24,110 bases of DNA. Origin: a virus. The notes under the pieces were generated by a model. That model worked only from the letters and a program-made list of their open reading frames with translations, searched no databases and was not told the origin of the DNA. How positions within the stretch are numbered: the stretch's first letter is position 1; each line of letters opens with the position of its first letter. Shown here piece by piece: positions 1,584 through 23,165 of this stretch. The stretch lies in the IMG/VR virus record IMGVR_UViG_3300036715_001109, positions 1 through 24,110 of that record. One strand, 5' to 3'. The position numbers and the translations under genes are program-made.

Positions 1584-1623
1584 TTTCTCGTGTGTATTAC
1601 ATTGTTGTAATACGCCCTAATAA
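1584..1623. repeat. 40-bp palindromic element, copy 1
   Basis: Imperfect palindrome with core ATTACA-TTGT-TGTAAT (1596-1611) and a right arm ending CGCCCTAATAA. The left arm is the most divergent of the eight copies (TTTCTCG instead of TTATTNG). It fills the gap between the end of the GroES-like gene and the scaffold-like gene, within the minus-strand block. Confidence 0.85.
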
Positions 1624-2004
1624 TCAAACATTTTCCACAGTCGTAATAATATCAGTATCATTCACGAAGCGATACTCCCGACCATCCAAGTGGCTCGTGT
1701 GGAACTTCCCAGTATACTGCCCAACAAGCACTGTGTCGCCGACTTCCGCATAGTCAGTGCTCTTGTCGAACCAGCAATCATGACCGATTTCAACCACAGT
1801 TGCAGTGACAGACAGATTACGCTCTGCTTCCGCTGTTTTGCGCTGGATGATGATACCGCTTTCAGTTTGCTCTTCCACCTGCTGACCCACCAGCAACACA
1901 CGATGGCCAGTAGCGCGAAAGCCACTTTTGTTGCCCTCGTTGTAGCCCTTTGTCGCACGCCAGCCACGGGCTCCTTTTGCTACTGTTTCTTCTAAGTCCT
2001 TCAT
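1624..2004 (-). CDS. GroES-like co-chaperonin
   Basis: The 126-residue product matches the GroES/Hsp10 pattern from residue 33. It opens with HRVLLVG, like the HDRVIVK strand of GroES. A mobile-loop segment follows with Glu-Ser-Gly and a hydrophobic triplet III (51-53), equivalent to the Ile-Val-Leu tripeptide that docks GroES onto GroEL. Then come TATVVEIGHD, VGDTVLVGQYTG, a YRFVNDTDI strand and a terminal IITTVE, each in GroES order. About 30 extra, Lys/Gly-rich residues precede the fold. The stop of the upstream gene overlaps its ATG as ATGA, with GGGGAAA as ribosome site. T4 Gp31 shows that phages can replace host GroES for capsid folding. Location beside scaffold and capsid genes supports that role here, but GroEL partnership is inferred. 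Confidence 0.85.
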   Translation of the reverse strand: MKDLEETVAKGARGWRATKGYNEGNKSGFRATGHRVLLVGQQVEEQTESGIIIQRKTAEAERNLSVTATVVEIGHDCWFDKSTDYAEVGDTVLVGQYTGKFHTSHLDGREYRFVNDTDIITTVENV

Positions 2005-2255
2005 TCTGTTTCCCCTTCCTCGTCAACACCCAGACGGTCTTCAATATCTTCAATCAACGTTGTCAGAACCCGAACACCACCAAGAGCGGCTGCGTTCATC
2101 GCAACAGTTTCCTCGTTAGTTTTTCCGATAAAGGTTTCCCTTGCCCAGGCTTCCATAGCTTCATACTTACTGCTCACTAGCGTGTTCAATAACTCCCCCG
2201 TGACTGGGCTTTCCGCCCAATCCTTTCTCTCTTGTGCTGATATAACTTTTGACAT
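2001..2255 (-). CDS. Small acidic protein of the head block, 84 aa
   Basis: An 84-residue, mostly helical and acidic protein ending in DRLGVDEEGETE. It has no cysteines or membrane segment. AGGAGT precedes the ATG, and the gene begins 5 bases after the portal stop and overlaps the GroES-like start by four bases (ATGA), so it is clearly part of the operon. I do not recognise a family. Genes in this position are usually small accessory head proteins, but nothing in the sequence proves that. Confidence 0.85.
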   Translation of the reverse strand: MSKVISAQERKDWAESPVTGELLNTLVSSKYEAMEAWARETFIGKTNEETVAMNAAALGGVRVLTTLIEDIEDRLGVDEEGETE

Positions 2256-2260
2256 GCCTA

Positions 2261-4468
2261 TTACTCCTGTGGATTAGTTGCAGGGGCAGGTTCTCCACCC
2301 CCAGTTTGTGACGCCGTTGGGGCTTGTTTCCCTTGGGCTTCCTGCTTTGCTTGCATTGCCTTACTACCACTTTCTAAATACTTATGAAGCATCCCCATCG
2401 CCTTGGTAAGTCCTTCACTCTTTTGCTTTGCCGCTGCTATTTGCAATTCCAGCATCGCAATCGCGTGGCCACTCTCAACGCCTTGTGCTTCACTCAATTC
2501 CTTGACAGCTTTTGCCTCCAACTCCTTAACCTTCGCCTCATTCAGCGCAAGTTCCAGTTGCATATTCGCCACATCCAACTGCATACTATCGTGATGCTGC
2601 ATTTTCTTCAAGTCCAGCTCACCTGCTTTAATCTTCAACTCCTCCATCTTAGGATTCGGTGGCGGTGGTACAGCATTCTTCCCTTCTGGGTCTGGGTACA
2701 GGGCATCAATATCCGCCACATCATGCGCTTCCAAAAACGCTACAACAGCTTTGTACCGATTAAACCCTGGCTGACTCGACGCCAGTTGCAACACAATACC
2801 AGCTTTCTCCCTACGTTGTGACGCACTCACGACCTCAGCGCTCGCAGCTGGTGCCACTCTCATACTGTGCTTGGTATAGTCATCAGGCAACAACACTGCG
2901 TCAGGGCCAGAGGTTAGCTCTGCATAGTGCGGGTAGTAAGGAAGGAACACCGCGTTAATGCCCAGTATCTTCCGTAGTTCCTCAGTAAACCCTCGATACA
3001 TGCGGTTGTATATCCCGCTGAACAGCATCATACCTTGTTCAACGGTATTGCGGCTGGTTTCTGCTGGGGTATTCTGCCCAGGGCTAACCCCCGTCATGAT
3101 GTCGGTTGCACCAGAAATCTTTTCACTGTAAGTAACCAACATTCCAAGTAGTTGAAACAACACGCTACTTGGTTCACGCACAGGAAGTGGGAAGATGTTA
3201 TTCTTCAAGTCCGTGCCTGTGGAATCAATAGGCTTCCACTCAAATGGGTCAAAGGAAGTTTTTCCGCCTTTAATCTTCACACCACGGCCAAGGAATCCAC
3301 CAGCTGTTGTCGCCATCGTCCCCGCATCAATCAACTGATTCGTCAGTGTATCGACAGCTTCGTTCATCGGCCCAAGTAACGCGCCAAGACCTAGGCCGTA
3401 CACACCACCATCTGGACTTGGAATGAACAAGTAGCGTGTGTAGTACAGCATAGGAGCAATCCGCACGATGTGATTGTCTTTCGCGCTTTGGAATTTCTCC
3501 GCACGGCGTTCAAGTGAACTTCTCAGATCCGTGTCGTCGGCTGCAAGTGCTTCCTGCTCATACTTCCGCACGATTGCATCATTGCGCCTGCTGATGCTGC
3601 CCTCAGTAAACCTAGCAACAACCCGTAAGACCTGTGCAGTATCATGCCGCACTGACACGATGTAAGGCTCTTTGTAGCCATCACCGTCAAGGTCAATCCA
3701 GCAATGCTGCTCTAGTATCTCGTAAGTGTCATTGGTATCCCCACCAGTTGGACGTATGCCAGTTGCTTCCTGCTGTGTCTGCTGTAACAAGTAGCTCTCA
3801 GAAGGCAGCGTTGGTGCGGCATCCTCCGTCATTTCCAGGAATATCCCTCTGCGGAAGTTCTCCTGTAATTCATTATTTGTCTTGAGGAGTATCTCAGTAA
3901 TCCGTTGTGCCTTATCGATATCCTTGCAATTGTAGTCCAGAATCAAATCCATCGCAGGCACATGACCTGAAATTGTAGCACCAGCAACTGTATCTGGGTA
4001 CGTCTTCTTAAAAGCACTCCCAAGCAGACACGCTGAGAACTTCGCCTGCTCATCGCTATCCAGCCAGTTTTTATCATCCTCAATCAACTGCATGGAGATG
4101 TGCTTGCTAAGCCGCTTCGCTTGAAAGGCTTTCTCCCCCTTGGAATCATTCCCAAGTACTTGCACACTTGCGAGTTGTTTCCCCTTGGTCATAATGGAAA
4201 TACGCGCAAGGAACTGCAACACTGCTATTGTCAGTAAAGGGAACTTCACATTACTACAGTTAGTCCAAGGGAAAGACTTAGTCTCCTTGACTTGCAGTGC
4301 AAGCTTCACCGCATCAGCATGGCGCTCTTCCCAGTCTGCACGGCTACTCCTATCTCTGGCTGTGTTAGTTACTACTTCCATTCCCAGTTTTTGCAAATAC
4401 TCCTTATCCAGAAACTCAGCAATGTTAGGAGATTCCATCAGCTTTTGAATATCATACTTTGTCGTCAT
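2261..4468 (-). CDS. Portal protein
   Basis: At 735 residues this is in the size class of P22-type podovirus portals. It shows the family's early segment KSFPWTNCSNVKFPLLT (about residues 64-80), a central region with YLFIPSPDGGVYGLGLGALL and DTLTNQLIDAGT, and ISGATDIMTGVSPGQNTPAE before a helical stretch rich in Met. These mark the wing and stem regions of such portals. The C-terminal 135 residues are a long Lys/Glu/Ala coiled coil (about 600-690) followed by a Gln/Pro/Gly-rich tail, reminiscent of a barrel extension. The dodecameric portal forms the DNA entry vertex and docks the terminase encoded just upstream. The ribosome site is AAGGGT, and the gene starts 12 bases after the terminase stop. 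Confidence 0.9.
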   Translation of the reverse strand: MTTKYDIQKLMESPNIAEFLDKEYLQKLGMEVVTNTARDRSSRADWEERHADAVKLALQVKETKSFPWTNCSNVKFPLLTIAVLQFLARISIMTKGKQLASVQVLGNDSKGEKAFQAKRLSKHISMQLIEDDKNWLDSDEQAKFSACLLGSAFKKTYPDTVAGATISGHVPAMDLILDYNCKDIDKAQRITEILLKTNNELQENFRRGIFLEMTEDAAPTLPSESYLLQQTQQEATGIRPTGGDTNDTYEILEQHCWIDLDGDGYKEPYIVSVRHDTAQVLRVVARFTEGSISRRNDAIVRKYEQEALAADDTDLRSSLERRAEKFQSAKDNHIVRIAPMLYYTRYLFIPSPDGGVYGLGLGALLGPMNEAVDTLTNQLIDAGTMATTAGGFLGRGVKIKGGKTSFDPFEWKPIDSTGTDLKNNIFPLPVREPSSVLFQLLGMLVTYSEKISGATDIMTGVSPGQNTPAETSRNTVEQGMMLFSGIYNRMYRGFTEELRKILGINAVFLPYYPHYAELTSGPDAVLLPDDYTKHSMRVAPAASAEVVSASQRREKAGIVLQLASSQPGFNRYKAVVAFLEAHDVADIDALYPDPEGKNAVPPPPNPKMEELKIKAGELDLKKMQHHDSMQLDVANMQLELALNEAKVKELEAKAVKELSEAQGVESGHAIAMLELQIAAAKQKSEGLTKAMGMLHKYLESGSKAMQAKQEAQGKQAPTASQTGGGEPAPATNPQE

Positions 4469-4480
4469 AATCTTTACCCT

Positions 4481-5947
4481 TTAATACCCTGTAGTGGTTG
4501 ACCTGCCATTGTTACTGCCTCTATTTGCCCCATGCCCGCGTTCGTACAGTTCATCCTCATCCATAAAGTCTTCCTCTTCCTGCAACGGAAGGCTATCAAA
4601 TCCGCGAGAACACAAAGCAGCACTGTCGAACTGGTCGTCCAAAGTGCTTTCGCTATACCCCGTAAACCGCAGGCACTCATGTTCAAAGTTTGCATACCAG
4701 TCGCCCTCTTTATCAAATTTACATGCGCCAGCTTTCATACGCTTCTGCCAGCTGCGCCCCTTCGTTGCCTTGTCCTTCATCGCACTCAGCGGGATGCAGT
4801 TAAGAAACACCCCACGCTGTGCCATCTCCCTGTTCAGTATCGGCTCGACTGCTTTCCAAATAACCCCATCCTCAACGAAGAAAGCCATCGGGTCATGCAG
4901 TTCCTGTATCTCAAACATTTTGTCGATGATTTCAGGTGTATCCCAGCGCCCCACATGCTGGTCAATGAATTGTAACACGTTCTCGGCTGTTTGCCCAGCC
5001 ACAGTCATTGACGTGCGGTTTGCTTTGTCCTTCTTACTAATGGCAAAGTCAATACCAACACCCAGCCGCATTGGCCGCGCATAGTCCTCACCTTCCATTT
5101 CGTGAAAGTCAGCTTTCCGCAGGTACGCTTCCGAGTTATCAAACGGGTCGTTCAGGTACTCTTGACTATAACCACTGGAATCGAATTGCTCAATGTAACT
5201 CTGCCGCACTGCTCGCAGGGTTTTCTCGTCGTACTGTTCTGGCCAGAGGATGTTGCTGAAGTCATCAAAGGCCGCGTGTGCTTTATAGAACAGGGTTTTC
5301 CAAGTCGGCGCCAGCATCAACCTCGCAAGCAGGGAATCCTCGTGCAGAATCGTCCCGTGAATCCGTATCTTCCCGCCACGGCGAAGAGCTGGGATAACTG
5401 CACGGAAGAACCAGCGGCGGAATTTATCCCTACGTTCTTTGTTCTCCACCTGTTCATCGTCTTCCAAGTCATCGCACACGATAAGGCCAGGCCGTTTCCC
5501 CCGCCACTTCCTACCACGCATCTTCTGACCAGAACCACGCGCGAGAATACGGAACTGATGCCCGTCCTTCATCTCAACGATAATCTCAGTCTTGCTGTTA
5601 GTGACGAATCCTTTTATCTGGAAGTCCTCAATCAGCTCCTCATTCTCAATCAACTCCCTCGTAATATCCCCGAGGTGCTCAATCGCCAGTTCCTCGTTCG
5701 TGGAAATAACAATGATGTAGTCCTCTGCACGGAATAGCGCAGTCGCCAGTGTGAAGTCGTGGGTGAAGGAAGTTGATTTCGCGTGACCACGTGGAGCTGC
5801 TATCCCTGCACGGAGTTCATCCGAGCTGTACAATGCCCATCCTTCCCTATGGAAGTCAGGCGTAGGCTTGGCATCGTCGTATCCCGCGCTCAGGTACGTC
5901 GCAGAGAAAGACTCGATGAGGTCGGAAGTGAGCTTGACTGGCTGCAT
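4481..5947 (-). CDS. terL: Terminase large subunit (ATPase-nuclease)
   Basis: The DNA-packaging motor, 488 residues from the ATG. An N-terminal ATPase carries Walker A APRGHAKST (51-59), Walker B LIVCDDLEDDE (155-165) and a HGT coupling motif (about 197-199). The C-terminal RNase H-fold nuclease has GIDFAISKKD (first Asp at 300), FFVEDG (359-360) and DDQFDSAAL with the last metal-binding Asp (438-441). I chose the ATG at 5947 because it overlaps the small-subunit stop as TGATG. An in-frame TTG one codon upstream is a less likely start. It cuts concatemeric phage DNA and drives it through the portal encoded next. Confidence 0.95.
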   Translation of the reverse strand: MQPVKLTSDLIESFSATYLSAGYDDAKPTPDFHREGWALYSSDELRAGIAAPRGHAKSTSFTHDFTLATALFRAEDYIIVISTNEELAIEHLGDITRELIENEELIEDFQIKGFVTNSKTEIIVEMKDGHQFRILARGSGQKMRGRKWRGKRPGLIVCDDLEDDEQVENKERRDKFRRWFFRAVIPALRRGGKIRIHGTILHEDSLLARLMLAPTWKTLFYKAHAAFDDFSNILWPEQYDEKTLRAVRQSYIEQFDSSGYSQEYLNDPFDNSEAYLRKADFHEMEGEDYARPMRLGVGIDFAISKKDKANRTSMTVAGQTAENVLQFIDQHVGRWDTPEIIDKMFEIQELHDPMAFFVEDGVIWKAVEPILNREMAQRGVFLNCIPLSAMKDKATKGRSWQKRMKAGACKFDKEGDWYANFEHECLRFTGYSESTLDDQFDSAALCSRGFDSLPLQEEEDFMDEDELYERGHGANRGSNNGRSTTTGY

Positions 5948-6522
5948 CAATCGTCACCAACCGCTGAGGCTTGCTCAATTGTTACAGGCTGGTGTACATT
6001 CCTGCGCTGCTTCTCCAATGCCGCTAACAACCTATCTGCGATTGTATCAACATTCCCCACGGGGGTCAATGCAGTTTCCTCTTTCTTCGGCATACCCAGA
6101 CCGAGAGCCTTCACACCAATCTCCGCAGCCTTCACAACCATGAAGTCAGTTACTTCGGGATGGTCGAGCTTGGTGTGCATTACGTTAAGTGAGTGCAGGG
6201 CAAGTGCACGAAACCTCTCTTCCATTGTGGAAGTGATTGTAGGGTCAAGCAGCTGATGCCGAATCGGGTCGAGTGCGTCCTGGAAGCGGTCACTCGCAAG
6301 CAGCGTCAGGAACCATTGGCGTGGTCGCTTGTATTCCTTCGCAACATCAGCTGGGGAAGCGTCTGGGTGCTGTAGTAGATAGTCAATTATACTATCTATG
6401 GTGTAGGATAGAGGGACAGGAGCGGGTGGGTGAGCCAGGGGCTGCGCTTTGTCAACCTCGCTACCGCCAAACAGCTTATCCAACTCCAGCCCCGTACCTA
6501 AGTTAGCGTCAACTGTACTCAC
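5947..6522 (-). CDS. Terminase small subunit-like protein, 191 aa (paralogue 1)
   Basis: Likely DNA-recognition subunit of packaging, lying immediately before the large terminase. A Pro-rich N-terminal extension (about 1-40) precedes a helix-turn-helix-like region (42-78, HPDASPADVAKEYKRPRQWF). A helical oligomerisation-type region follows (ASDRFQDALDPIRHQLLDPT, then EERFRALALHSLNVMHTKL). The middle of the protein is clearly homologous to the next upstream gene. The start is GTG, overlapping the upstream stop as GTGA; the ribosome site is weak, suggesting coupled translation. Position and fold support small terminase. Which of the two paralogues does the pac or cos recognition cannot be told from sequence. 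Confidence 0.75.
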   Translation of the reverse strand: MSTVDANLGTGLELDKLFGGSEVDKAQPLAHPPAPVPLSYTIDSIIDYLLQHPDASPADVAKEYKRPRQWFLTLLASDRFQDALDPIRHQLLDPTITSTMEERFRALALHSLNVMHTKLDHPEVTDFMVVKAAEIGVKALGLGMPKKEETALTPVGNVDTIADRLLAALEKQRRNVHQPVTIEQASAVGDD

Positions 6523-6899
6523 GCGCGCCCACGTCCGTAGCTGGCCATAGCTGCTGAAGCAAGCCCAAGGGCGTCAATCGCAAAGGCAGGGGATTCATCA
6601 GTGCTCAGTTTTTCTTCAATGATAGTCATGGAGTGGATTGCTACGCTGCGTAAGCGTTCATCCAGGGAAGCCGCGACGATAGGGTCAGTGAGTTGTGCCT
6701 TGCGCTGGGCAAGTCGCGCTTGAAACGCATCACTTGCGATTACGCGGGATACCCAGCCTGCGGAGTAGTTAAAGATTTCACCCAATTCAATCGCTGTCAC
6801 AGTTGGCTCAGCCAGGATGAGGTCAGCCATCGCTTCATGCGTGTAGTTGAGGTGCTTGATTGCGGTTGCAGGCGTTGCTGCGGGTTTTGCTGTGTCCAT
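6519..6899 (-). CDS. Terminase small subunit-like protein, 126 aa (paralogue 2)
   Basis: First gene of the minus-strand block. It is homologous to the following gene: ASDAFQARLAQRKAQLTDP here against ASDRFQDALDPIRHQLLDP there, then LDERLRSVAIHSM against MEERFRALALHSL. It has a helix-turn-helix-like segment at about 33-55 (TVTAIELGEIFNYSAGWVSRVI) and a short C-terminus ending YGRGRA. The ATG has GGGAGT upstream. It could be a second subunit of a hetero-oligomeric small terminase, a regulator of packaging, or a recent duplicate. The shared helix-turn-helix makes DNA binding likely in either case. Confidence 0.75.
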   Translation of the reverse strand: MDTAKPAATPATAIKHLNYTHEAMADLILAEPTVTAIELGEIFNYSAGWVSRVIASDAFQARLAQRKAQLTDPIVAASLDERLRSVAIHSMTIIEEKLSTDESPAFAIDALGLASAAMASYGRGRA

Positions 6900-7049: not shown

Positions 7050-7089
7050 TTATTCGCGCGGATTACAGCATTGTAATACACCCCAATAA
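7050..7089. repeat. 40-bp palindromic element, copy 2
   Basis: Left arm TTATTCGCGCG, core ATTACA-GCAT-TGTAAT (7062-7077), right arm ending CCCCAATAA. It lies in the divergent region, about 150 bases upstream of the first packaging gene. Confidence 0.9.
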
Positions 7090-8195: not shown

Positions 8196-8243
8196 CATTC
8201 CCCAAATACGCCTAACCTAACTTGGGCGTATTTGGGGAATGTT
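8194..8243 (+). repeat. Intercistronic hairpin, 19-bp perfect stem (cassette copy 1)
   Basis: AACATTCCCCAAATACGCC (8194-8212) pairs perfectly with 8225-8243 around a 12-base loop. The stem begins within the stop codon of the preceding gene. No T-run follows, so it is not a typical intrinsic terminator; a processing or stabilising RNA structure is likelier. TTCCC, then TAAAAGAGGCTCTCAAA and ATG follow, as in copy 2 at 8594. Confidence 0.85.
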
Positions 8244-8269
8244 CCCAACGCATAAAAGAGGCTCTCAAA

Positions 8270-8594: not shown

Positions 8595-8640
8595 CATTCA
8601 CATAATACGCCTGCTAAAATCGGGCGTATTGCGGGAATGT
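8594..8640 (+). repeat. Intercistronic hairpin (cassette copy 2)
   Basis: Related to the hairpin at 8194. ACATTC/GAATGT (8594-8599 with 8635-8640) forms the outer stem and AATACGCC/GGCGTATT (8604-8611 with 8623-8630) the inner stem, with a 4x4 internal loop. It is followed by TTCCC and by TAAAGAGGCTCTCAAA before the next ATG, so the whole unit of about 75 bases is a diverged duplicate. Confidence 0.8.
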
Positions 8641-8668
8641 TCCCATACTGACTAAAGAGGCTCTCAAA

Positions 8669-9199
8669 ATGCAAAATTCAACCAAACGTACACCAGCTGT
8701 CACCACGACCGTTAACGGTAGCTTGCTAATAGTAACATTCGCAGACGGGGAAACGGCGGCAATTGATACCAATTTACTAGCCGATGATATTCGCGTTACC
8801 GCCATGTATCATGGTCTTAATGCAAAACTCGTTGACGCAGCCGCCATTGGGCGGGATAGCGTGACGGGAAAATCGGCTAGCCTGTCCGAGAAAAAAGCCG
8901 CCGTCTTGGAGATAGTGGAACGGTTGACGGGCGAAAATCCTTCATGGAACAAAATCAGAGAAGGGGGCGGTAATGGCGGTGTTAACAACGGTCTATTACT
9001 TCGTGCGATTATGGAGGTTAGCGGCAAATCATACGAGGAAACTCGCACGTTCCTGCTTAATCTGTCTGCTGAGCAGAAGGCGGCAATTCGTGCCCGTGAA
9101 CGTGTGGCGAATGTTATCGCACGGATGCAACGGGAAAAACTTGCGGCTGTTGATGTATCCGATGAGTTTGATGACTTCCTAGGCGGTGATGACGAATAA
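8669..9199 (+). CDS. Hypothetical phage protein, paralogue of the 10537 gene
   Basis: A 176-residue soluble protein. It is homologous to the 211-residue product at 10537: LLLRAIMEVSGKSYEETRTF here against ILARAMVEVSGKTLDEVKKF, then ANVIARMQREK against APVIARLEAAK. The N-terminal half also aligns (TFADGET against DFVNGES). The C-terminus is acidic with DEFDDFLGGDDE, a tail type that also ends the 10537 and 14777 products (LLxGFM). The ATG follows GAGGCTCTCAAA. An intrinsic terminator follows 27 bases after the stop. The family is familiar among phage hypothetical proteins; its function is not known to me. Confidence 0.85.
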   Translation: MQNSTKRTPAVTTTVNGSLLIVTFADGETAAIDTNLLADDIRVTAMYHGLNAKLVDAAAIGRDSVTGKSASLSEKKAAVLEIVERLTGENPSWNKIREGGGNGGVNNGLLLRAIMEVSGKSYEETRTFLLNLSAEQKAAIRARERVANVIARMQREKLAAVDVSDEFDDFLGGDDE

Positions 9200-9300: not shown

Positions 9301-9340
9301 TTATGGGGGCGTATTACAATGGCGTAACATGCGCGAATAA
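9301..9340. repeat. 40-bp palindromic element, copy 3
   Basis: Left arm TTATGGGGGCG, core TTACA-N5-GTAA, right arm ATGCGCGAATAA. It lies 50 bases beyond the terminator. TATTAT (9299-9304) overlaps its left edge as in copy 6, but no good -35 precedes it. Confidence 0.9.
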
Positions 9341-9869: not shown

Positions 9870-10292
9870 ATGACCTATCCGACTGAGCTTTCCAAATATC
9901 CAGTGGAGTTCGAGCAGATTGTTCTTCGTGCACACGCCCTTCGTGAGCCGTTGCTGTTGCGCTTCCCAGATGTAAAACACACCCGCCGCTTCCGCAGTCG
10001 CTTCTACGCGTACCTGCGGCTGGTGCGGGCTGCTGACCTCAACAATACACTGGCGCTGGCTGCAGCTTCAGTGACCCTCGCGCTGGCGGATGACCACCTG
10101 TCCTGCACAATTGGGGTGGCAGATGTGATGCAGGGGCTTAGCGTGGAAGTCCAGGTGTTGCGTGGGGTGCTAGGGGCAGGGGTTGCTGGTGCTGCAGTGG
10201 CTGCTGGGGATGCTGTCGTCCCTGCACAGGAGGCTTTGCGTGCGAAGTTGGCTGAGATTCGCAGAAGGAAAGTAGTGGATGCAGCAGGTTAG
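9870..10292 (+). CDS. Hypothetical protein downstream of the iterons, 140 aa
   Basis: A 140-residue helical protein. The N-terminal half is basic and aromatic (LRFPDVKHTRRFRSRFYAYL, residues about 34-53), compatible with nucleic-acid contact. The middle and C-terminal parts are Ala/Val/Leu-rich (VLGAGVAGAAVAAGDAV), then a short basic helix EALRAKLAEIRRRK. The ATG follows AAAGGAA. Its G-rich sense strand and codon use differ from the A/T-richer 10537 gene. Position directly after the iterons suggests it could be a site-binding protein, but no known initiator motif is visible. Confidence 0.75.
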   Translation: MTYPTELSKYPVEFEQIVLRAHALREPLLLRFPDVKHTRRFRSRFYAYLRLVRAADLNNTLALAAASVTLALADDHLSCTIGVADVMQGLSVEVQVLRGVLGAGVAGAAVAAGDAVVPAQEALRAKLAEIRRRKVVDAAG

Positions 10293-10295: not shown

Positions 10296-10335
10296 TTATT
10301 GGGGTGTATTACAATGGCGTAATCCACGCGAATAA
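10296..10335. repeat. 40-bp palindromic element, copy 4
   Basis: Left arm TTATTGGGGTG, core ATTAC-N6-GTAAT, right arm CCACGCGAATAA. It starts three bases after the stop codon of the 9870 gene and lies upstream of the 10537 gene. Confidence 0.9.
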
Positions 10336-10536: not shown

Positions 10537-11172
10537 ATGAATACAGACGTAGCAGAAGTAGCAGCAAAAAAAACAGTTAAGCCAACCACATACGTTACAG
10601 TCACAATGGATGACGGTCGTGTTGTTGACTTCCCAGGCAACCAGCGCATGAAGAAAGAAGTCATCATCGACGGTAACACTGTTAAGGTTCGCATGGACTT
10701 CGTAAATGGTGAAAGCCGCATCTTTACCGTGGGTGATAAGTTGCTGTTGAAGTTTGCAGGTCACGGCGCATCACAGAAGTTAGGTGATGAATTATCAGGC
10801 TTGACCGATGTCGAAGACTGCGTTATGGCAATTGACGAGCTGATGGACAGATTAAACGCTGGCGAATGGGGTGTTACCCGCGTCAAGGGTGAGTCAATGG
10901 CTGGTTCAAGCATCCTGGCTCGCGCTATGGTTGAAGTATCTGGCAAAACCTTGGATGAAGTTAAGAAATTCTTGGCTGACAAGAACCAGAAGCAAAAAAT
11001 GGCATTGCGTAACCTGCCAACAATCGCGCCAGTTATTGCGCGTTTGGAAGCTGCCAAAACTAAAAAGCCACGCGATACAGCTGAAGCTGACCAGTTGCTG
11101 GATGGTTTCATGGGTTACGCAGTTGCCAAAGACCTTGCAATCCCAGACCCGATGGCAGACATTGCAGAGTAA
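10537..11172 (+). CDS. Conserved phage hypothetical protein, paralogue of the 8669 gene
   Basis: A 211-residue soluble protein. The N-terminal 55 residues are Lys/Val-rich. The core has MDFVNGESRIFTVGDKLLL (53-71) and KFAGHGASQKLGDELSGL (72-89), then a helical region with EVSGKTLDEVKKFLADKNQK and PVIARLEAAKTKKP. The tail motif ADQLLDGFM (184-192) recurs in shortened form in the 14777 product. The gene has its own leader (AAGGAGCCTCAA before the ATG) and its own terminator, so it is probably a separately controlled, strongly expressed transcript. The family is one I associate with phages of Pseudomonadota; the function is unknown. Confidence 0.88.
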   Translation: MNTDVAEVAAKKTVKPTTYVTVTMDDGRVVDFPGNQRMKKEVIIDGNTVKVRMDFVNGESRIFTVGDKLLLKFAGHGASQKLGDELSGLTDVEDCVMAIDELMDRLNAGEWGVTRVKGESMAGSSILARAMVEVSGKTLDEVKKFLADKNQKQKMALRNLPTIAPVIARLEAAKTKKPRDTAEADQLLDGFMGYAVAKDLAIPDPMADIAE

Positions 11173-11276: not shown

Positions 11277-11316
11277 TAACTAGGGCGGATTACAGTATTG
11301 TAATACACACGAATAA
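11277..11316. repeat. 40-bp palindromic element, copy 5
   Basis: Core ATTACA-GTAT-TGTAAT, left arm TAACTAGGGCG, right arm CACACGAATAA. It sits between the terminator and the next promoter. Confidence 0.9.
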
Positions 11317-11870: not shown

Positions 11871-11889
11871 CAATACAGTGAGGCTCAAA

Positions 11890-12519: not shown

Positions 12520-12711
12520 ATGGCAAGGCCTAAGAAGTTAATCAGAACAGTTTACAAAAACATTGCAATCCCTGAAGACCTTGCAGCTAAAATGGAGCTG
12601 GAGCTGTACAGCGAAGTGGAAGGCAAAATCCCTTTTGGAGCGCAGCAAGAGTTTTTCACAGGTCTATTGCGTGAGTATTTCAATAAACAAGCTGGAGGTG
12701 TACAGTCATGA
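12520..12711 (+). CDS. Small protein, possibly ribbon-helix-helix, 63 aa
   Basis: A 63-residue protein beginning MARPKKLIRTVYKNIAIPED, then LAAKMELELYSEVEGKIPFG and a final helix TGLLREYFNKQ. A basic tail, one beta strand ending in IPEDL and two helices fit the ribbon-helix-helix outline of small DNA-binding regulators. It resembles a widespread small phage protein type. AAGGAG precedes the ATG and the stop overlaps the next start (ATGA). DNA binding is an inference from shape only. Confidence 0.8.
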   Translation: MARPKKLIRTVYKNIAIPEDLAAKMELELYSEVEGKIPFGAQQEFFTGLLREYFNKQAGGVQS

Positions 12712-13004: not shown

Positions 13005-14297
13005 ATGACAAACCTAGCAGTAGTACCAGTAACACCAATCACCCTAACACCTGAGCAATCAGAAGCCATCAACAGTTTAATGGGATTCCTATCTGACCCT
13101 TCACCAGACTCCCGATTCTTCACCTTAGCAGGCTTTGCAGGTACTGGCAAAACATTCTGTATGCGGGAAGTTGTTGCACGAAGTAAAAACAGCCGCGCAA
13201 AGTTCGCCTTCACCGCGCCAACAAACAAAGCAGCAAAGGTACTCCGCGCTATCACAGGGGAAGCACAGACAATTTTTTCCCTCTTGGGGCTTCGGATTGA
13301 CAAAACAGGGGAATTAAAGCAACTCGTTGTAGGGAAAGCTCCGCCTGACCTGTCCGACTATACAGCAATATTCGTGGATGAAGGTAGTATGGTGAATAAA
13401 AACCTGTTCAAACTCCTGCATGAGAAAGCAATCACTTACGACTTGAAGGTAATCTTCATGGGGGATGCGGCCCAGCTCCCCCCAGTAGGTGAAGCCTCCT
13501 CACCAATCTGGACGCAGGTCGAGAATTCCGCAAGCCTCACCAAGGTAATGCGGCATGATAACCAAATCCTAACCCTTGCTACTGAGTTGCGGGAAGTCAT
13601 GAACGACTTCTGCCCCTCCATTACAATCAAGTCCTCGCACTCGGAAAATCAAGGCGTCTGGAAGGTGGCTAAAAACCTTTTCAAGCAGTCAATCTACGAC
13701 GCTGCAGTCGCAGGTGACTTCTCTGACGGTAGTAAGTCCAAGGTGATTGCTTGGAGAAATGCTAGAGTGTCGGAATACAACATCCTGATACGCAATGCGA
13801 TATTTGGCGCAGCGGCGCAATCACAGCCATACATTAAAGGGGATAGAATTGTAGCCGCTGCGCCATGTATGCGTGGTGACGACCCACTCTTGACGACAGA
13901 CGAAGAAGCCATCGTAGAGGGGGCGATAGAGTGTAATCACCCACTGGAGCCAAAGTACCGTTGCAGGGAATTGTCAGTCCGTACAGAAGCTAACAAACTT
14001 GTGCGGTTGCTGGTACTGCATGAAGACAGCGCTGAACGCTACGCACAAGATAGTGAAAAACTAGCCTATGATGCCAAGGCAACTCCAAGACTCTGGAAGA
14101 AGTTTTGGGAACACAAAGACCTATTCCATGACATCAAGTACGCCTACGCCCTCACAGCTCACCGTTCCCAGGGTTCGACGTATGAAAACGTCTGGGTAGA
14201 TTACCAAGACATCCTTATCAACCGTAATAGAAAGGAGGCATTTCAATGCCTGTATGTAGCCTGCACACGCCCAACAACGAAGTTGATTCTGGCGTGA
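13005..14297 (+). CDS. Dda/RecD2-like SF1 DNA helicase
   Basis: A 430-residue superfamily 1B helicase, 5'-3' by family. All main motifs are present: Walker A GFAGTGKT (43-50), motif Ia FTAPTNKAAKVL (69-80), motif II VDEGSM (124-129), motif III GDAAQLPPVGE (153-163), motif V TAHRSQGST (about 384-392), and motif VI YVACTR (417-422). The length is like T4 Dda and shorter than RecD. It probably unwinds DNA at the fork or origin, or remodels recombination intermediates with the Sak4-like and nuclease proteins downstream. AAAGGAAA precedes the ATG. Its last 52 bases overlap the next gene in another frame. Confidence 0.93.
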   Translation: MTNLAVVPVTPITLTPEQSEAINSLMGFLSDPSPDSRFFTLAGFAGTGKTFCMREVVARSKNSRAKFAFTAPTNKAAKVLRAITGEAQTIFSLLGLRIDKTGELKQLVVGKAPPDLSDYTAIFVDEGSMVNKNLFKLLHEKAITYDLKVIFMGDAAQLPPVGEASSPIWTQVENSASLTKVMRHDNQILTLATELREVMNDFCPSITIKSSHSENQGVWKVAKNLFKQSIYDAAVAGDFSDGSKSKVIAWRNARVSEYNILIRNAIFGAAAQSQPYIKGDRIVAAAPCMRGDDPLLTTDEEAIVEGAIECNHPLEPKYRCRELSVRTEANKLVRLLVLHEDSAERYAQDSEKLAYDAKATPRLWKKFWEHKDLFHDIKYAYALTAHRSQGSTYENVWVDYQDILINRNRKEAFQCLYVACTRPTTKLILA

Positions 14298-14685: not shown

Positions 14686-14714
14686 TTGCACTCTGGAGGG
14701 GAATTACCTATTAT
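14686..14714 (+). promoter_or_regulatory. Candidate promoter overlapping palindrome copy 6
   Basis: TTGCAC (14686-14691), exactly 17 bases, and TATTAT (14709-14714, five of six). The -10 shares its last four bases with the left arm of the 40-bp palindrome, so a protein on the palindrome would cover the promoter start region. Confidence 0.5.
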
Positions 14715-14750
14715 TAGGGTGTGTTACAAAATCGTAATGCGCCCTAATAA
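14711..14750. repeat. 40-bp palindromic element, copy 6
   Basis: Left arm TTATTAGGGTG, core TTACA-N5-GTAA, right arm GCGCCCTAATAA. It lies 27 bases before the start of the 14777 gene. Confidence 0.92.
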
Positions 14751-14776: not shown

Positions 14777-14986
14777 ATGAGCGAAGTAGTGCAAGGAAGT
14801 ATCCAAATCTGGCGTCAGAAGTCCCTGGATGGCACAATCACACTGGACGAGATGCGGCAAGCCATCGCCGCAATCCGTAAGGAACGAGTCCAGGCATCAG
14901 AGAAATCCGCTGTATCCAGAGCCGCAAAAGCAAAAGCCACACCGATTGACGGTGACGCGCTGTTGCAAGGGTTTATGGAAATGTAA
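14777..14986 (+). CDS. Small helical protein with C-terminal LLQGFM motif, 69 aa
   Basis: A 69-residue charged helical protein. The middle (TITLDEMRQAIAAIRKERVQ) is amphipathic, the linker is Lys/Ala-rich, and the end is DGDALLQGFMEM. That end matches the tail ADQLLDGFM of the 10537 product, suggesting a shared short interaction peptide. AAAGGAAA precedes the ATG. The start of this type (IWRQKSLDGTITLDEM) is familiar among small phage proteins of unknown role. Confidence 0.78.
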   Translation: MSEVVQGSIQIWRQKSLDGTITLDEMRQAIAAIRKERVQASEKSAVSRAAKAKATPIDGDALLQGFMEM

Positions 14987-18483: not shown

Positions 18484-18546
18484 ACTAGCAGTAAACCGTT
18501 GCTCTTAACCCTTAGCTCTTTAGCTTAACTTTTAAAGGAAATCAAA

Positions 18547-18993: not shown

Positions 18994-19025
18994 GCTCTAA
19001 ACCGTAACTTGTAGTCTGTACCAAG

Positions 19026-19057
19026 CCCAGAGGACTTTCTTCTCTGGGTGTTTTCCC
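19026..19057 (+). terminator. First intrinsic terminator after the 18547 gene
   Basis: CCCAGAG (19026-19032) pairs with CTCTGGG (19042-19048) around a 9-base loop, followed by TGTTTTCC. The T-run is short, so efficiency may be partial. Confidence 0.65.
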
Positions 19058-19116
19058 TAACTGAACGCCTTTTGGCCAGTGCTTATACATGAAAATCTTA
19101 ATCAAACATACAATAC

Positions 19117-19150
19117 ACCCAGTCAGCTACTTTGCTATCTGGGTTTTTTT
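19117..19150 (+). terminator. Second, stronger intrinsic terminator
   Basis: ACCCAG (19117-19122) pairs with CTGGGT (19139-19144), with an inner AGC/GCT stem, followed by a run of seven T (19144-19150). It comes 25 bases before the methyltransferase gene, which therefore depends on readthrough or on a promoter not seen here. Confidence 0.88.
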
Positions 19151-19174
19151 ACGTCTATTCAAAAAGGAAGCTGT

Positions 19175-20548
19175 ATGCAAATCGTAGATTCCAAGAAACT
19201 AATTATAACAAAAGACAGACAGCGGAAGGAATTCTCCCCTGAAGCCATTGGGGAACTGTCTGAAACAATTCGCAGCAAAGGCCTCATGCACGCTGTTGTA
19301 GTACGGGAAACTCCTGAAGGCCTAGTCCTCGTTGCAGGTGAGCGCAGGTTAAAAGCGATTGAAGATATGGAAATGCTGGGCGGTAAGCTCCGCTACAACG
19401 GTCAAGACATCCCTTCTGGCTTTGTCCCTTATGTCACCCTAGGGCAACTCACACCACTGCAAGCTGAGGAAGCCGAACTCGACGAAAACTTGCACAGAAA
19501 GGATTTAACTTGGCAGGAAAGTGCGGCGGCTATGGCAAAGCTCCACCGTATCCGTTCACAGCAAGCTCAGGAAGAAGGTCGCATCCACACGGTAGCTGAT
19601 ACTGCAATGGAAATCAAAGGGCGTAGTGATGGTTCATACCAGGACTCTGTCCGCAAAGACTTGATTGTAGCAAAGCACTTGGACAACCCTGAAGTAGCGA
19701 AAGCGAAATCCGCGGAAGAGGCCTTCAAAATCCTCAAGCGCCAAGAAATAACTCAAAAGAACATCGAACACGCTGCCACTGTAGGTAAGACATTTTCCTC
19801 CTTCCTGCACCAAGTTCACAACGTCGACTGCTTGGAATGGATGGCAACTTGCCAAGCTGAGCAATTCGATGTAATCCTCACAGACCCGCCCTATGGCATG
19901 GGTGCTGACACTTTCGGTGATGGGGGTGATGGCAGACTTGCTAACAACGAACACCACTACAAGGATGACTACGAACACTTCCATGCCCTTATGACTAAGT
20001 GGACTGCACTATCCTATCGTGTGGCAAAGTCAGAAGCCCATGCCTATGTTTTCTGTGACTTGGACAACTTCCACGAACTCAAAGCTATGATGCAAGCAGC
20101 TGGCTGGTACGTTTTCCGCACTCCGTTTGTCTGCACTAAACCAAACTCTGGCCGCGTACCACTCCCCTTCGAAGGTCCTCGTCGCCAGTACGAACTCATC
20201 CTGTACGCAATCAAAGGTCACAAGAAAATCACAGCCATCTACCCAGATGTCATAACTACATTCCAAGATGCAGGCCTCCAACATGGCGCGCAGAAGCCAG
20301 TTGCGCTGTATGAAAACCTGCTTACGCGTAGCGTTCGTGCTGGTGACAGCGTGCTTGATTCCTTCGGCGGCAGTGGAACTCTCCTCCCTGCCGCGCATAA
20401 CTTAAAGTGCAAAGCCACTGTGCTTGAAAAGTCCCCTGAATACTACGGGATTTGCCTCAAGCGTCTAAATGCCCTGACAGATGGCTCACCAGCACTTGAC
20501 GGTGAAGCTCTTGGCAATGAGTTGAAAAACTTACTAGGAGGACTCTAA
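19175..20548 (+). CDS. ParB-domain / DNA methyltransferase fusion
   Basis: A 457-residue fusion. Residues 1-110 are a ParB/Srx-like domain: SPEAIGELSETIRSKGLMHA, then AGERRLKAIE (GERR at 55-58) and ENLHRKDLTWQE. Residues 111-205 are helical, like the ParB middle domain. Residues 212-440 are a methyltransferase with catalytic DPPYGMG (237-243), GAQKP (371-375) and the cofactor loop FGGSGT (397-402). DPPY ahead of the SAM-binding motif is the beta-class order, giving N6-adenine or N4-cytosine methylation. The start has AAGGAAG upstream. The stop overlaps the polymerase start (TAATG). Phages use such enzymes against host restriction; no cognate restriction gene is present. Confidence 0.9.
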   Translation: MQIVDSKKLIITKDRQRKEFSPEAIGELSETIRSKGLMHAVVVRETPEGLVLVAGERRLKAIEDMEMLGGKLRYNGQDIPSGFVPYVTLGQLTPLQAEEAELDENLHRKDLTWQESAAAMAKLHRIRSQQAQEEGRIHTVADTAMEIKGRSDGSYQDSVRKDLIVAKHLDNPEVAKAKSAEEAFKILKRQEITQKNIEHAATVGKTFSSFLHQVHNVDCLEWMATCQAEQFDVILTDPPYGMGADTFGDGGDGRLANNEHHYKDDYEHFHALMTKWTALSYRVAKSEAHAYVFCDLDNFHELKAMMQAAGWYVFRTPFVCTKPNSGRVPLPFEGPRRQYELILYAIKGHKKITAIYPDVITTFQDAGLQHGAQKPVALYENLLTRSVRAGDSVLDSFGGSGTLLPAAHNLKCKATVLEKSPEYYGICLKRLNALTDGSPALDGEALGNELKNLLGGL

Positions 20549-22944
20549 TGCCAATAATGCCAGTCGGCCCAACTAACGCCAAGATTGCGCTTGTGGGCGA
20601 GTTCCCGCATGAACAAGACCTTCTCCGAGGTCAGCCTTTCTGTGGTGGCCCAGGTATGGAACTTGGCCGTATCCTTAATGAATCAGGACTCTCCCGTGAA
20701 GAGTGCTTCATCACAATGGTCTGCAATGACCGCGTACCACGTAGTCGAATCGAAGGCGTCATCGCCATGAAGAAGAAAGACATCGGCACTGCGCACGTCT
20801 TGTACAATGGGAAGTGGGTATTGCCTCAAGTCGTGGAGGGCATCGAACGCTTGAAGCAAGAACTAGAACTGCTCAAACCCAATGTCGTCTGCACTTTTGG
20901 CAATCTCGCTCTCTGGGCACTCACAGGGCAATGGGGTGCGGGGAGCTGGAGAAGCTCCGTCATGGAGTCAACACTAATCCCTGGGTTGAAAGTAATCCCT
21001 ACAGTTAGCCCTGCGTTGCTGCTATCTCAGTGGTCACTGCGTCCATTGCTGGTGCATGACTTGAAGAGAGTGAAAAGGGAAAGCAGGTTTGCAGGAGTTA
21101 TTCGCCCGAATTACAACTTTGTAATACGCCCGAATTACGACACCGCCCTTACCCAACTAAACGGGCTAATCCAGCTTGCAGATTCCGCAGCCGCAACAGG
21201 GGTGAAACTCAAGCTCGGGGCTGACATTGAAACACGCGCAGGTCACATTGCTTGTATCGCTTTCGCATGGACTCCCCACGATGCTATCTGCATACCTTTG
21301 ATGTCCAGCACCAACCCAGAAGGTTATTGGAGTGCAGAAGAAGAATCCCAACTCGTCTTCCTGATGTGCAAGTTAATGTCCCTTGTTACAATCATTGGGC
21401 AAAACTGGAACTACGATGCTCAGTACATCTACCGCCACTGGCACTTCCTCTGCCCTGACGTACAAGACACAATGATTCAACAGCACTCTTGCTTCTCCAA
21501 CCTTCCAAAGAACCTGGCCTTCCTCTCCAGCATGTATTTGGAAGACCACCTCTACTGGAAAGACGACCGCACGAATTGGACTGAAGGGCCAAAGGGTGAA
21601 GGTGAAGATGTGTTCTGGAAGTACAACTGCACAGATTCCATGCGTACACTTGGCATCCACGCTGTCCTTGAACAAGTCGTCATCGGAATGGGGATGCAGG
21701 AAGTCAACCGCTTCCAGCAATCCCTAGCACCTGTCGTGCTGCAAACAATGATTCGAGGCATCCGTGTTGACCTTTCACAACGGGAAAGCTTCTCACAGGC
21801 ACTTCAACAAGCCGAAGCCGAGCGCAAGCAATGGATGCTGGATGTCCTTGGTCATGAGGTCAACATCAAGTCCCCTAAGCAGATGCAAGAACTCTTCTAC
21901 CAAGAACTCAACCAGACGGAAGTCAAACATCGTAACGCAGAAGGGGGCATGTCCGTCACAACAAATGACGAAGCCCTGCATCGCATTGCTCAGCGTGAAC
22001 CTATCCTTGACCCGCTGTGTAAGAAAATCTCTGAACTCCGAAGCATTGGTGTTTTCCACTCCACCTTCATCCAAGCACCCCTTGACATCGACGGGCGCAT
22101 ACGAACATCCTTCAACATCTGCGGAACTGAAACCTACCGCTTCGCCAGTAGCAAAAACGCATTCGGCACTGGCCTCAACATGCAGAACATCCCCAAGGGG
22201 GGCGATACTGAAAATGGTGGCCTGACCCTTCCCAATGTCCGTAACATCTTCATCCCTGACCAAGGCCACACGATGTTCGACATTGACCTGGACAGTGCAG
22301 ACTTACGCATTGTGACTTGGGAAAGTGATTGCAAATGGATGAAAGACCACTTCGCCAATGGCCGCAAGCCCTACATTGAAGTCATGCGGGAATACTACCA
22401 CAACCCCAATATGACTAAGCACTCCCACCCACGCGAGTACGGTATGTTCAAATCCCTGTGTCATGGCACGAACTACCTCGGAACAGCAGATGGTATTGCC
22501 CCCCGCATTGGTCTGCTTGTCCACGAAACCGAACGCATCCAGAAATGGTACTTCGGCTTAGCCCCAGAGATAAAGGCCTGGCAAGAAGATATCAAAAAGC
22601 AAGTATCTGGCCGCCGCTACGTTGAAAATGTCTTTGGCTATCGTAACTACTTCTTCGACAAAATCGAAGGTACAATCTTCAACCAAGCTGTCGCATGGAT
22701 TCCGCAGAGCAGTGTGGCTTGCCTAATCAACCGTGGGTATGTCAACATTGCGAATAACCTACCTGAAGTTGAAGTCCTTCTTCAGGTGCATGATTCCTTG
22801 GCTGGCCAGTTCGACTCCCTCCACGGTGACTGGGCTTTGCGCCGCATTGCCGAGGAATGTGAGATTGCCCTGCCGTATGATGAGCCGTTAATTATCCCAG
22901 TTGGCGTGGTTAGTAGCAAGGTTAGCTGGGGTCAATGCGGGTGA
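20548..22944 (+). CDS. UDG-like domain fused to family A DNA polymerase
   Basis: A 798-residue replicative polymerase. Residues 10-170 are a uracil-DNA glycosylase-superfamily domain (LVGEFPHEQD at 15-24, GQPFCGGPG, FGNLALWAL at 117-125, TVSPALLL at 152-159). The usual His of the HP motif is Ser154, so activity is doubtful. Residues 222-370 are the 3'-5' exonuclease: D226/E228, N286/D290 and Y359xxxD363. The polymerase domain has motif A DIDLDSADLRI (578-588), motif B KSLCHGTNYLG (635-645) and motif C QVHDS (746-750). No 5'-3' exonuclease is present. Residues 184-197 are encoded by a 40-bp palindrome. Start overlaps the methyltransferase stop. Confidence 0.93.
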   Translation: MPIMPVGPTNAKIALVGEFPHEQDLLRGQPFCGGPGMELGRILNESGLSREECFITMVCNDRVPRSRIEGVIAMKKKDIGTAHVLYNGKWVLPQVVEGIERLKQELELLKPNVVCTFGNLALWALTGQWGAGSWRSSVMESTLIPGLKVIPTVSPALLLSQWSLRPLLVHDLKRVKRESRFAGVIRPNYNFVIRPNYDTALTQLNGLIQLADSAAATGVKLKLGADIETRAGHIACIAFAWTPHDAICIPLMSSTNPEGYWSAEEESQLVFLMCKLMSLVTIIGQNWNYDAQYIYRHWHFLCPDVQDTMIQQHSCFSNLPKNLAFLSSMYLEDHLYWKDDRTNWTEGPKGEGEDVFWKYNCTDSMRTLGIHAVLEQVVIGMGMQEVNRFQQSLAPVVLQTMIRGIRVDLSQRESFSQALQQAEAERKQWMLDVLGHEVNIKSPKQMQELFYQELNQTEVKHRNAEGGMSVTTNDEALHRIAQREPILDPLCKKISELRSIGVFHSTFIQAPLDIDGRIRTSFNICGTETYRFASSKNAFGTGLNMQNIPKGGDTENGGLTLPNVRNIFIPDQGHTMFDIDLDSADLRIVTWESDCKWMKDHFANGRKPYIEVMREYYHNPNMTKHSHPREYGMFKSLCHGTNYLGTADGIAPRIGLLVHETERIQKWYFGLAPEIKAWQEDIKKQVSGRRYVENVFGYRNYFFDKIEGTIFNQAVAWIPQSSVACLINRGYVNIANNLPEVEVLLQVHDSLAGQFDSLHGDWALRRIAEECEIALPYDEPLIIPVGVVSSKVSWGQCG
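21098..21137. repeat. 40-bp palindromic element, copy 7, inside the polymerase gene
   Basis: Left arm TTATTCGCCCG, core ATTACAA-CT-TTGTAAT, right arm CGCCCGAATTA. It is read in frame as VIRPNYN-FVIRPNY between the UDG-like and exonuclease domains, producing a near-exact repeat of VIRPNY. Same length and centre as the intergenic copies. Confidence 0.92.
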
Positions 22945-22964
22945 TTTTGCGGGTTTGCGTGGAT

Positions 22965-23026
22965 GAGGGAAAAATAAGAGGCGAAAATCCGCATTATATG
23001 GGGCATGGTGCGATTATTTTACCCTC
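22965..23026. repeat. Inverted repeat after the polymerase gene
   Basis: GAGGGAAAAATAA (22965-22977) and TTATTTTACCCTC (23014-23026) are complementary at 12 of 13 positions. A related GAGGTAAAAATAATGCG follows in direct orientation at 23047-23063. The gap of 238 bases between genes otherwise contains only the promoter and palindrome listed below. Confidence 0.6.
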
Positions 23027-23100
23027 ACCTATACCATCCTATCAACGAGGTAAAAATAATGCGTCATACGGCGTTACTCACACAGTTATTAGATAGGGTA

Positions 23101-23129
23101 TTGCTAACTGTGGTATGTTAGGGCATTAT
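23101..23129 (+). promoter_or_regulatory. Candidate promoter overlapping palindrome copy 8
   Basis: TTGCTA (23101-23106), exactly 17 bases, and CATTAT (23124-23129), each four of six. As at copy 6, the last four bases of the -10 lie within the left arm of the palindrome. Confidence 0.45.
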
Positions 23130-23165
23130 TAGGGCGTGTTACAATTTTGTAACACGCGTGAATAA
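23126..23165. repeat. 40-bp palindromic element, copy 8
   Basis: The most symmetrical copy: core GTTACAA-TT-TTGTAAC, arms TTATTAGGGCG and CGCGTGAATAA. It ends 17 bases before the next start codon, so any promoter for that gene must overlap it or lie upstream. Confidence 0.93.

Follow-up and report, generated by a model that had tools for sequence, protein, structure and literature searches.

The 40-bp palindromes that recur in the window, the whole stretch of 24,110 nt of phage DNA analysed here, are probably the recognition (loading) sites of the phage's own ParB-DNA methyltransferase fusion (ParB-MTase), and as judged from sequence comparison they would form a dispersed network similar to parS or OB sites. 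The computations support a site that is symmetric half by half, words specific to each genome, orthologous placement, independence of the structural gene module, association with ParB-MTase, and covariation of its residue 154 with column 17 of the site. The network may serve in methylation, gene control or DNA organisation.

Palindromic sites in the window and in related phages

The eight copies reported in the preliminary description are all present, each exactly 40 bp long and with TTACA-N5-GTAA in common. A palindromic PWM, built from 52 seeds including the window's own copies (the site PWMs used for the window scan, the relatives, the polymerase copy and the arm analysis are all in-sample), scores them at 44.7-58.6 versus -7.2 for the next-best place in the window, and 200 first-order Markov simulations reached no more than 2.9. 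The family is thus far from chance, and neither scan nor simulations gave the chance-level occurrence that had been named as grounds for abandoning its reading as protein binding sites.

Gene-boundary placement was also borne out, as seven copies lie between genes (gene calls here and throughout are those of a simple custom caller). The PWM, with the gene calls for the first, third and fourth copies, places site 1 (1584-1623) between the minus-strand genes 1624-2004 and 605-1567, site 2 (7050-7089) upstream of two minus-strand HTH genes (5947-6522 and 6519-6899), site 3 (9301-9340) downstream of gene 8669-9199, site 4 (10296-10335) between 9870-10292 and 10537-11172, site 5 (11277-11316) downstream of 10537-11172, site 6 (14711-14750) 26 bp ahead of the start of 14777-14986, and site 8 (23126-23165) 17 bp ahead of gene 23183-23788. 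Site 7 (21098-21137) lies within the plus-strand CDS of a DNA polymerase A with an N-terminal UDG-like domain (20548-22944), where it is retained through synonymous codon choice. By eye, a terminator-like hairpin is found just before site 5 and a TTGCAA-16-TATAAT promoter-like pair just after it. The two HTH genes are labelled terminase-small-subunit-like here, without any Pfam match. A flank logo of 155 oriented sites shows a weak symmetric extension past the 40 bp, with purines at -1/-2 and G at -3, mirrored on the opposite side.

Comparison with 19 contigs picked among polymerase relatives, counting sites that score above 25, showed that the family is kept in 18 of them (34-48 kb), rather than being lost in relatives as its refutation had been imagined. 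These contigs carry 11-16 copies in the same frame with a TA core that hardly varies, at a density of roughly one per 3-4 kb; two contigs (G006 and G015) apparently have repeated ends, where a site is possibly counted twice. Each genome has its own arm word while the sites occupy orthologous gene boundaries. Two genomes without the group's structural gene families still have sites of their own word, 11 in G021 and 8 in MW202489 (the latter picked by eye among 12 candidates). The persistence of the sites where structural genes are replaced indicates that the binder is an early gene.

In 17 genomes the two arms of a site resembled each other no more than did arms taken from different sites of that genome (z -3.0 to +0.5), so that the compensatory variation previously suggested did not hold. 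As the two arms vary independently, the element is a symmetric DNA site and not an RNA hairpin, and by its shared half-site with independent arms it appears, like ParB-parS and KorB-OB loading sites, to be a palindrome for a symmetric DNA-binding protein. Conservation in the relatives and the concerted change of words also favour the earlier suggestion of sites for one dimeric phage protein, as a genome-wide operator or a ParB-like site.

The ParB-methyltransferase fusion as candidate binder

The proposed binder is a fusion of 457 aa encoded on the plus strand at 19175-20548, identified by Pfam and PHROG matches and linked to the sites by covariation. Pfam gives ParB_N (1.2e-9) and N6_N4_Mtase (2.2e-24) on the longer ORF 19079-20548, PHROG matches were also obtained, and the protein contains GERR at residue 55, ENLHR at 104, an HTH from about 139 and DPPY at 237. 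HMM matches place a ParB-family protein on the same replicon as the sites in 19 of 20 site-bearing records, the lone exception being a 34-kb contig (G027). Neither ParB-MTase nor such a site was found in G031 and OQ067476, and the Microcystis phage PP438425 has ParB-MTase with no 40-bp site family found.

Sites sharing the core are also found in other phages with a ParB-MTase. From at least 600 stretches listed, 80 ParB-MTase loci were kept, and in a de novo screen of 68 loci among the matches listed 34 passed, of which 28 have the TA core (15 of the 28 on previously unseen contigs), while 34 failed, 12 of them under 10 kb. The screen, which requires information exceeding that of two shuffles by 3, is not specific. 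With width 40, Mana, MW202796, OQ067476 and PP438425 also pass, on coding-like repeats in which inspection by eye showed no TA core, as does OP947158 through a palindrome of its own; with width 30 or 24, so do EBPR podovirus 3, MW202796, MW202554 and OK172329. Among those passing on coding-like repeats are some phages that lack the fusion.

The closest link between protein and site is residue 154, in the window a Ser (codon 19634-19636, plus strand) in the ParB recognition helix (GRSDGSYQ). Among 356 columns compared in 35 non-redundant phages, none predicts site column 17 as well (z 8.2, next 5.3), with Ser paired with C in 14/14, Gly with A in 4/4 and Ile, Val or Asp with T in 6/6 (Fisher Ser vs C p 1.6e-6, relatedness ignored). 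The 35 were thinned from 51 rows retained out of 62; left out were rows with fewer than four sites and the weak loci L196, L198, L208 and L214, the last four of which stayed in the hold-out. This set and the 17-genome set below consist of related phages, non-redundant at 95% or 90% ParB-MTase identity, and their statistics were calculated without a tree. The rule for residue 154 and column 17 was fixed before further loci were fetched, and in the hold-out (22 loci among the matches listed) it applied to 9 of the 20 rows whose base was clear, predicting 8 of them correctly (rank 8/336), one Ser (L209) lying in an uncertain alignment. The match of HTH residue and site base is strong in the 35-phage and 17-genome sets and moderate in the hold-out. 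Together with the independence of the arms, this covariation argues for the fusion as the likely binder, which the preliminary description had named as a candidate.

When the columns of 13 early families from 17 genomes were scored, one in ParB-MTase came out on top for five (8, 9, 10, 11 and 17) of the seven site columns tested, with 60 shuffles each and with ParB-MTase supplying 466 of the 3478 aligned columns; columns 12 and 14 were best predicted by other proteins. For column 17 families 14, 9, 0 and 12 reached z 7.3, 7.1, 7.1 and 6.9, versus 8.9 for ParB-MTase. Of the further pairs in the hold-out, residue 107 with column 11 failed and residue 252 with column 8 was not rankable. Arg254 (codon 19934-19936, plus strand), in the methyltransferase loop after DPPYG, covaries with column 10 in a manner that is suggestive only (12/16, rank 24/337, Fisher p 0.12). 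Whole-protein distance correlation singled out no binder in two analyses, partial correlations being 0.06 for ParB-MTase and 0.25, 0.23 and 0.22 for families 12, 26 and 0 in one, and 0.33 for ParB-MTase and 0.62 and 0.54 for families 19 and 0 in the other. In a sliding-window distance scan a polymerase segment (0.68) ranked above the ParB HTH (0.55).

Possible functions and alternative readings

A ParB-MTase dimer would sit on the dyad, its ParB HTH contacting the RTTAC/GTAAY core, and the outer word would be read by another surface, perhaps the methyltransferase loop around residue 254. The ParB domain may then act as a nucleotide-gated clamp that loads at the site and slides, thereby placing the methyltransferase, or a KorB-like roadblock to RNA polymerase, over the DNA between sites. 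Even spacing would give coverage of the whole phage genome, and the private word would keep ParB-MTase off host DNA and other phages. Spacing is on average more even than that of random gene boundaries (mean percentile 0.10 in 17 contigs), and in 10 of the 17 the largest gap does not exceed the 5% level.

With this same binder, the purpose may be transcription control, a serious possibility although short of an even one, in which clamps loaded at dispersed operators would silence nearby promoters early or late; KorB on RK2 is a precedent for such control (PMC11790492). The placement of the sites is consistent with this, since 39 of 155 in tandem gene pairs begin 0-4 nt past the stop codon upstream and an end 15-39 nt ahead of the next start is found for 76 of 195 oriented sites, and so are the TATAAT-like hexamers enriched inside the site (44 in one 10-bp bin, a peak ascribed to words like the one in G018) and, mildly, at its left edge (12 hits over 10 positions vs about 4, partly the site's own TTATT). 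However, no -35 peak was seen in 155 oriented flanks, and neither a downstream -10 peak nor a fixed downstream promoter spacing in 195, and an operator linked to host promoters at fixed spacing was rejected on these grounds. Sites also occur at convergent gene ends (23/241) and within genes (26/241), and their even spacing also speaks against promoter control. Nor is an orientation bias relative to transcription general, as the flip test gave p<0.05 in only 3 of 19 genomes (in the window the GGG arm is upstream in 7 of 8 copies, flip test p 0.26), and the oriented stoperator was rejected as a general reading. At sites 6 and 8 of the window a TTGC..-N17 pair can be fitted by eye to the left edge.

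Self-marking of the phage genome by ParB-MTase is a more tentative suggestion: the clamp would load at about a dozen evenly spaced private sites, slide, and so spread methylation along the whole phage genome and only there. The loading site, rather than the methylated motif, would then confer specificity, and private words would separate co-infecting relatives.

It is unlikely that the sites are instead operators of another early regulator governing a genome-wide regulon. The main rival binder, also named in the preliminary description, is a small ribbon-helix-helix-like protein (RHH-like; 12520-12711, plus strand), which would act as a multi-dimer repressor or activator. It also tracks the sites, with HMM matches in 18 of 20 site-bearing records and none or at most 19 bits in five relatives without the 40-bp family (G031, PP438425, MF497422, OQ067476 and OP947158), and the sites are mostly intergenic, as operators may be. 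The two exceptions are G001 and G027, contigs that stop within the region concerned or do not include it. One of 14 members matches RHH_1 (E 7.7e-4), and the structure model predicts two helices (19-29 and 39-60) with no strand in the monomer; its Foldseek search, however, gave no PDB match below E 7.6. Tandem RHH dimers are expected to have a short repeat within the half-site, whereas none is seen in the half-site here, and the best column of this protein for site column 17 reaches z 4.4 versus 8.9 for ParB-MTase. Two further candidates were rejected; their best z values for column 17 were 4.8 and 5.5 (the early paralog pair 8669-9199 and 10537-11172) and 4.6 and 5.4 (the HTH pair 5947-6899). 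The HTH pair also travels with the sites. The paralog 10537-11172, the sole one searched, gave PDB sequence matches no better than E 1.2, and its model (mean pLDDT 80, pTM 0.47) had no PDB fold match at E<=0.001.

Improbable, too, is that ParB-MTase at these sites serves the segregation or folding of replicating phage DNA. The ParB-type domain and the dispersed sites would suit such a purpose, and dispersed centromere sites are found in N15, but PF13614, the ParA fold searched for as the partner in ParABS partition, occurs in 0 of 19 records while 14 of 14 control genomes were positive. The tyrosine integrase PF00589 was likewise found in none of the 19, where contigs may be incomplete, and no polymerase relative was detected in a bacterial genome collection by a search that reaches close relatives only.

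RNA hairpins acting as terminators or RNase processing sites between genes are very improbable and were rejected, as the palindromic and mostly intergenic sites show arm pairing that is not co-selected and if anything avoided (arms re-paired within genomes, no covariation of paired columns), and lie beside genes of both strands and also within genes. A spreading palindromic (REP/RPE-like) mobile element, raised earlier, accounts for the fixed length, the dispersal and the one window copy within a gene, yet is equally implausible and was rejected, since orthologous places hold differing words and the polymerase protein stretch is also present in site-less relatives without insertion (an alignment check that covered the polymerase copy only).

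Known systems and significance

OB operators are dispersed over plasmid RK2, and KorB, which reads them, is not known to have a methyltransferase. The replicon here differs in being a phage, without detected PF13614 ParA or PF00589 integrase, whose word changes from phage to phage. With parS of ParABS the sites share a palindrome proposed to be read by a ParB-type HTH, and the GERR and ENLxR motifs of ParB-MTase presumably imply clamp logic; they differ from it in the lack of PF13614 ParA in 19 records, the genome-wide sites and the C-terminal methyltransferase. KorB, a ParB-family CTPase clamp, loads at operators on one replicon and acts at a distance, as suggested here, although OB is 16 bp rather than 40 bp and KorB acts together with KorA (PMC11790492).

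Cluster A mycobacteriophage stoperators are similar in their 20-30 dispersed sites per phage and diverging cognate specificity, but are 13 bp long, oriented with transcription, and belong to temperate phages with an immunity repressor (PMC6550527). ESAS of cluster K mycobacteriophages are imperfect inverted repeats near gene starts, with a consensus that is subcluster-specific and conserved by gene family, but have 17-bp arms, a variable spacer and mostly a link to the 13-bp SAS of the non-structural half (PMC3203893, PMC12699233). SPBRE of SPbeta is a repeated intergenic element bound by one phage protein, MrpR, but has a 15-bp motif, a tyrosine-recombinase-like repressor, a location in promoter regions and a temperate prophage as its replicon (PMC10516654). 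Fusions of a ParB-CTPase to an N6_N4-methyltransferase, the same domain combination as here, are frequent in phages, and the part of that account available gives no DNA target for them (PMC12704722), whereas one is now proposed.

The sites thus represent a candidate target sequence for ParB-methyltransferase fusions, with about a dozen sites per genome and a residue-base rule that can be tested across many phages. The differing words offer a natural set of candidate orthogonal ParB-site pairs. If clamps carry the methyltransferase from dispersed loading sites, a whole genome would be marked or regulated in a novel manner.

Dispersed 40-bp palindromes in the window and its relatives

The preliminary description had placed eight 40-bp palindromes sharing TTACA-N5-GTAA in the window, most of them at gene boundaries, and both their positions and this placement are confirmed: seven of the eight are intergenic, and the remaining one (site 7, 21098-21137) lies within the DNA polymerase A gene (20548-22944, +). 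When checked against chance frequency, a palindromic matrix built with the eight window copies included scores these at 44.7-58.6, compared with -7.2 for the next-best place in the window and a top score of 2.9 in 200 Markov simulations. A degenerate pattern search of viral contigs gave 46 stretches and a search by polymerase relatives 57 loci, and 19 contigs of 34-48 kb were analysed whole. Conservation in relatives is likewise evident, as 18 of the 19 contigs have between 11 and 16 of these 40-bp sites. The lone exception is G031, a contig with a 36% identical polymerase, in which none of the 40-bp sites was seen.

The sites have a constant frame: both ends are AT-rich (TT/AA in most genomes), the core is (A/G)-(T/G)-TA, and six bases form the centre. 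The word in the arms differs by genome; the window, for instance, has GGGCGTATTACA, G018 has CACCCGCATTAT, G015 has ACCTCACATTAC and G016 has GTAGGAATTAAT. Despite the different words, identical gene boundaries are occupied in many genomes. These are the boundaries preceding the family of window gene 605-1567 and the HTH/terminase genes, those around the early paralog pair, and the one that separates the helicase family (13005-14297) from the family of 14777-14986. Such use is not universal, and some genomes skip some of the boundaries. Within called genes, which cover about 89% of the sequence, lie 26 of 241 sites.

Site 7 encodes the protein sequence VIRPNYNFVIRPNY. Relatives without this site have the same polymerase protein stretch with no insertion, and sites at its position occur only in nearer polymerase relatives. 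The DNA word is under selection on top of the protein, since its score of 45.9 exceeds those of all 20,000 random synonymous codings (mean 17.1, maximum 40.5). The polymerase also carries a fused N-terminal uracil-DNA-glycosylase-like domain.

A candidate binding protein

The binder of the sites is most likely to be found among the early genes, because G021 and MW202489 keep these genes and 11 and 8 sites, respectively (the 8 selected by eye out of 12 listed), while the head and tail gene families of the group are absent. The proposed binder is the ParB-DNA methyltransferase fusion (ParB-MTase) encoded at 19175-20548 (+), in which a ParB_N domain and a ParB-type HTH are combined with an N6_N4 methyltransferase. 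It is present in 19 of 20 site-bearing records, and in G031 and OQ067476, both without it, no 40-bp site of this type was found. At least 80 loci with a ParB-MTase were fetched (five of 80 already in the set), and the 68 new ones that were 6 kb or longer were screened for sites de novo. Half of these (34/68) passed, 28 of the 34 with a TA core in 60% or more of their half-sites; 15 of the 28 are on contigs new to the set, and two more loci have the TA core without passing.

The small ribbon-helix-helix-like protein encoded at 12520-12711 (+) is a rival whose presence tracks the sites about equally well (18 of 20 site-bearing records), but it predicts site column 17 less well (z 4.4). In a comparison of 13 early families across 17 genomes, a column of the ParB-MTase is the top predictor for five of the seven tested site columns (8, 9, 10, 11 and 17), other proteins predicting columns 12 and 14 best; for column 17, families 14, 9, 0 and 12 are close behind (z 6.9-7.3 versus 8.9). 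Distance-based scans did not single out the ParB-MTase.

In 35 non-redundant phages, residue 154 of the ParB-MTase, in the recognition helix, ranks first among 356 columns as a predictor of site column 17. Ser occurs with C (14/14), Gly with A (4/4), Ile, Val or Asp with T (6/6), Ala with T (3), A (3) or C (1), Asn with C (2) or T (1), and Thr with C (1). The Ser/Gly/Ala rule was derived from 14 genomes and recorded ahead of fetching new loci. In a hold-out of 22 loci the learned rule was right in 8 of 9 predictions (rank 8 of 336), a result that moderately supports residue 154. Residue 254, which lies in the loop following the methyltransferase motif DPPYG, is also among the best-predicting columns and hints that the methyltransferase half may read the outer word; its hold-out association is suggestive (12/16, rank 24 of 337, p 0.12; 22 loci). 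Residue 107 was not supported by the 22-locus hold-out.

Other palindromes and early-region features

Desulfofustis phage OP947158, with a distant ParB-MTase (86 bits), has nine copies of another palindrome, ~25 bp long and of the form GCTATGTCCCAA-N-TTGGGACATAGC, six of the eight gaps measuring 4-8 kb, and Vibrio phage MF497422 has CAATCG-N6-CGATTG in four copies, one intragenic. Microcystis phage PP438425 has a ParB-MTase, yet no site family was found in it. Alcaligenes phage OK172329 has a terminase related to that of the window and no ParB-MTase match; in its early half a different palindrome occurs in nine copies (25203-46741) that are similar in sequence to TCCTAAYRTTAGGA. EBPR podovirus 3 (JF412296) has repeats of TCAGATGCGGCCGCTTGTATCTGA that carry a NotI site and resemble cloning or assembly scars.

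In the early region of the window, 8218-8257 and 8616-8655 are two copies of GGGCGTATT-N2-GGGAATGTTCCC, followed by a shared GAGGCTCTC, and include a half-word of the 40-bp site. The products of 8669-9199, 10537-11172 and 14777-14986 and their orthologs have by eye a common C-terminal acidic-hydrophobic tail like DxDALLxxL, which may serve for docking to one shared partner; a motif resembling it, also seen by eye, lies near the N-terminus in 11878-12354. Two neighbouring HTH paralogs per phage (5947-6899 and orthologs) adjoin the large terminase, and G021 and MW202489 retain a single relative despite lacking the large terminase family of the group. G003 encodes (23409-25736, -) an ATP-grasp-like protein with, by eye, an intein-like insertion (775 aa versus a median of 439 in relatives).

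Possible functions of the sites

With 17 related contigs treated as circles, the sites are on average more evenly spaced than gene boundaries picked at random (mean percentile 0.10), and in 10 of the 17 the maximum gap does not exceed the 5% level, G005 being an exception (0.64). Neither a fixed promoter spacing relative to the sites nor a general orientation was found. Like the stoperators and ESAS, the sites are dispersed with diverging words; their fairly even, unoriented and genome-wide coverage fits a network of clamp loading sites better than a classical operator set. The ParB-family clamp KorB of RK2 is described as able to silence promoters up to 1.5 kb distant (PMC11790492). An RNA reading, under which same-site arms would outmatch arms re-paired within the genome, is rejected, as is the partly compensatory variation described in the preliminary description, since in 17 genomes the arms of one site match no better than those of different sites (z -3.0 to +0.5); the sites appear to behave as two independent half-sites for a symmetric protein.

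Searches of 19 records found neither a PF00589 integrase nor a PF13614 ParA. In phages, fusions of ParB with a methyltransferase are described as frequent, with anti-defence or host interaction as suggested roles (PMC12704722), and none of the open-access literature matches listed reports dispersed sites for them. In the phages studied here, columns 15-16 hold a TA that hardly varies and is a candidate target of methylation, and the methyltransferase half of the proposed binder suggests that the phage genome may be marked.
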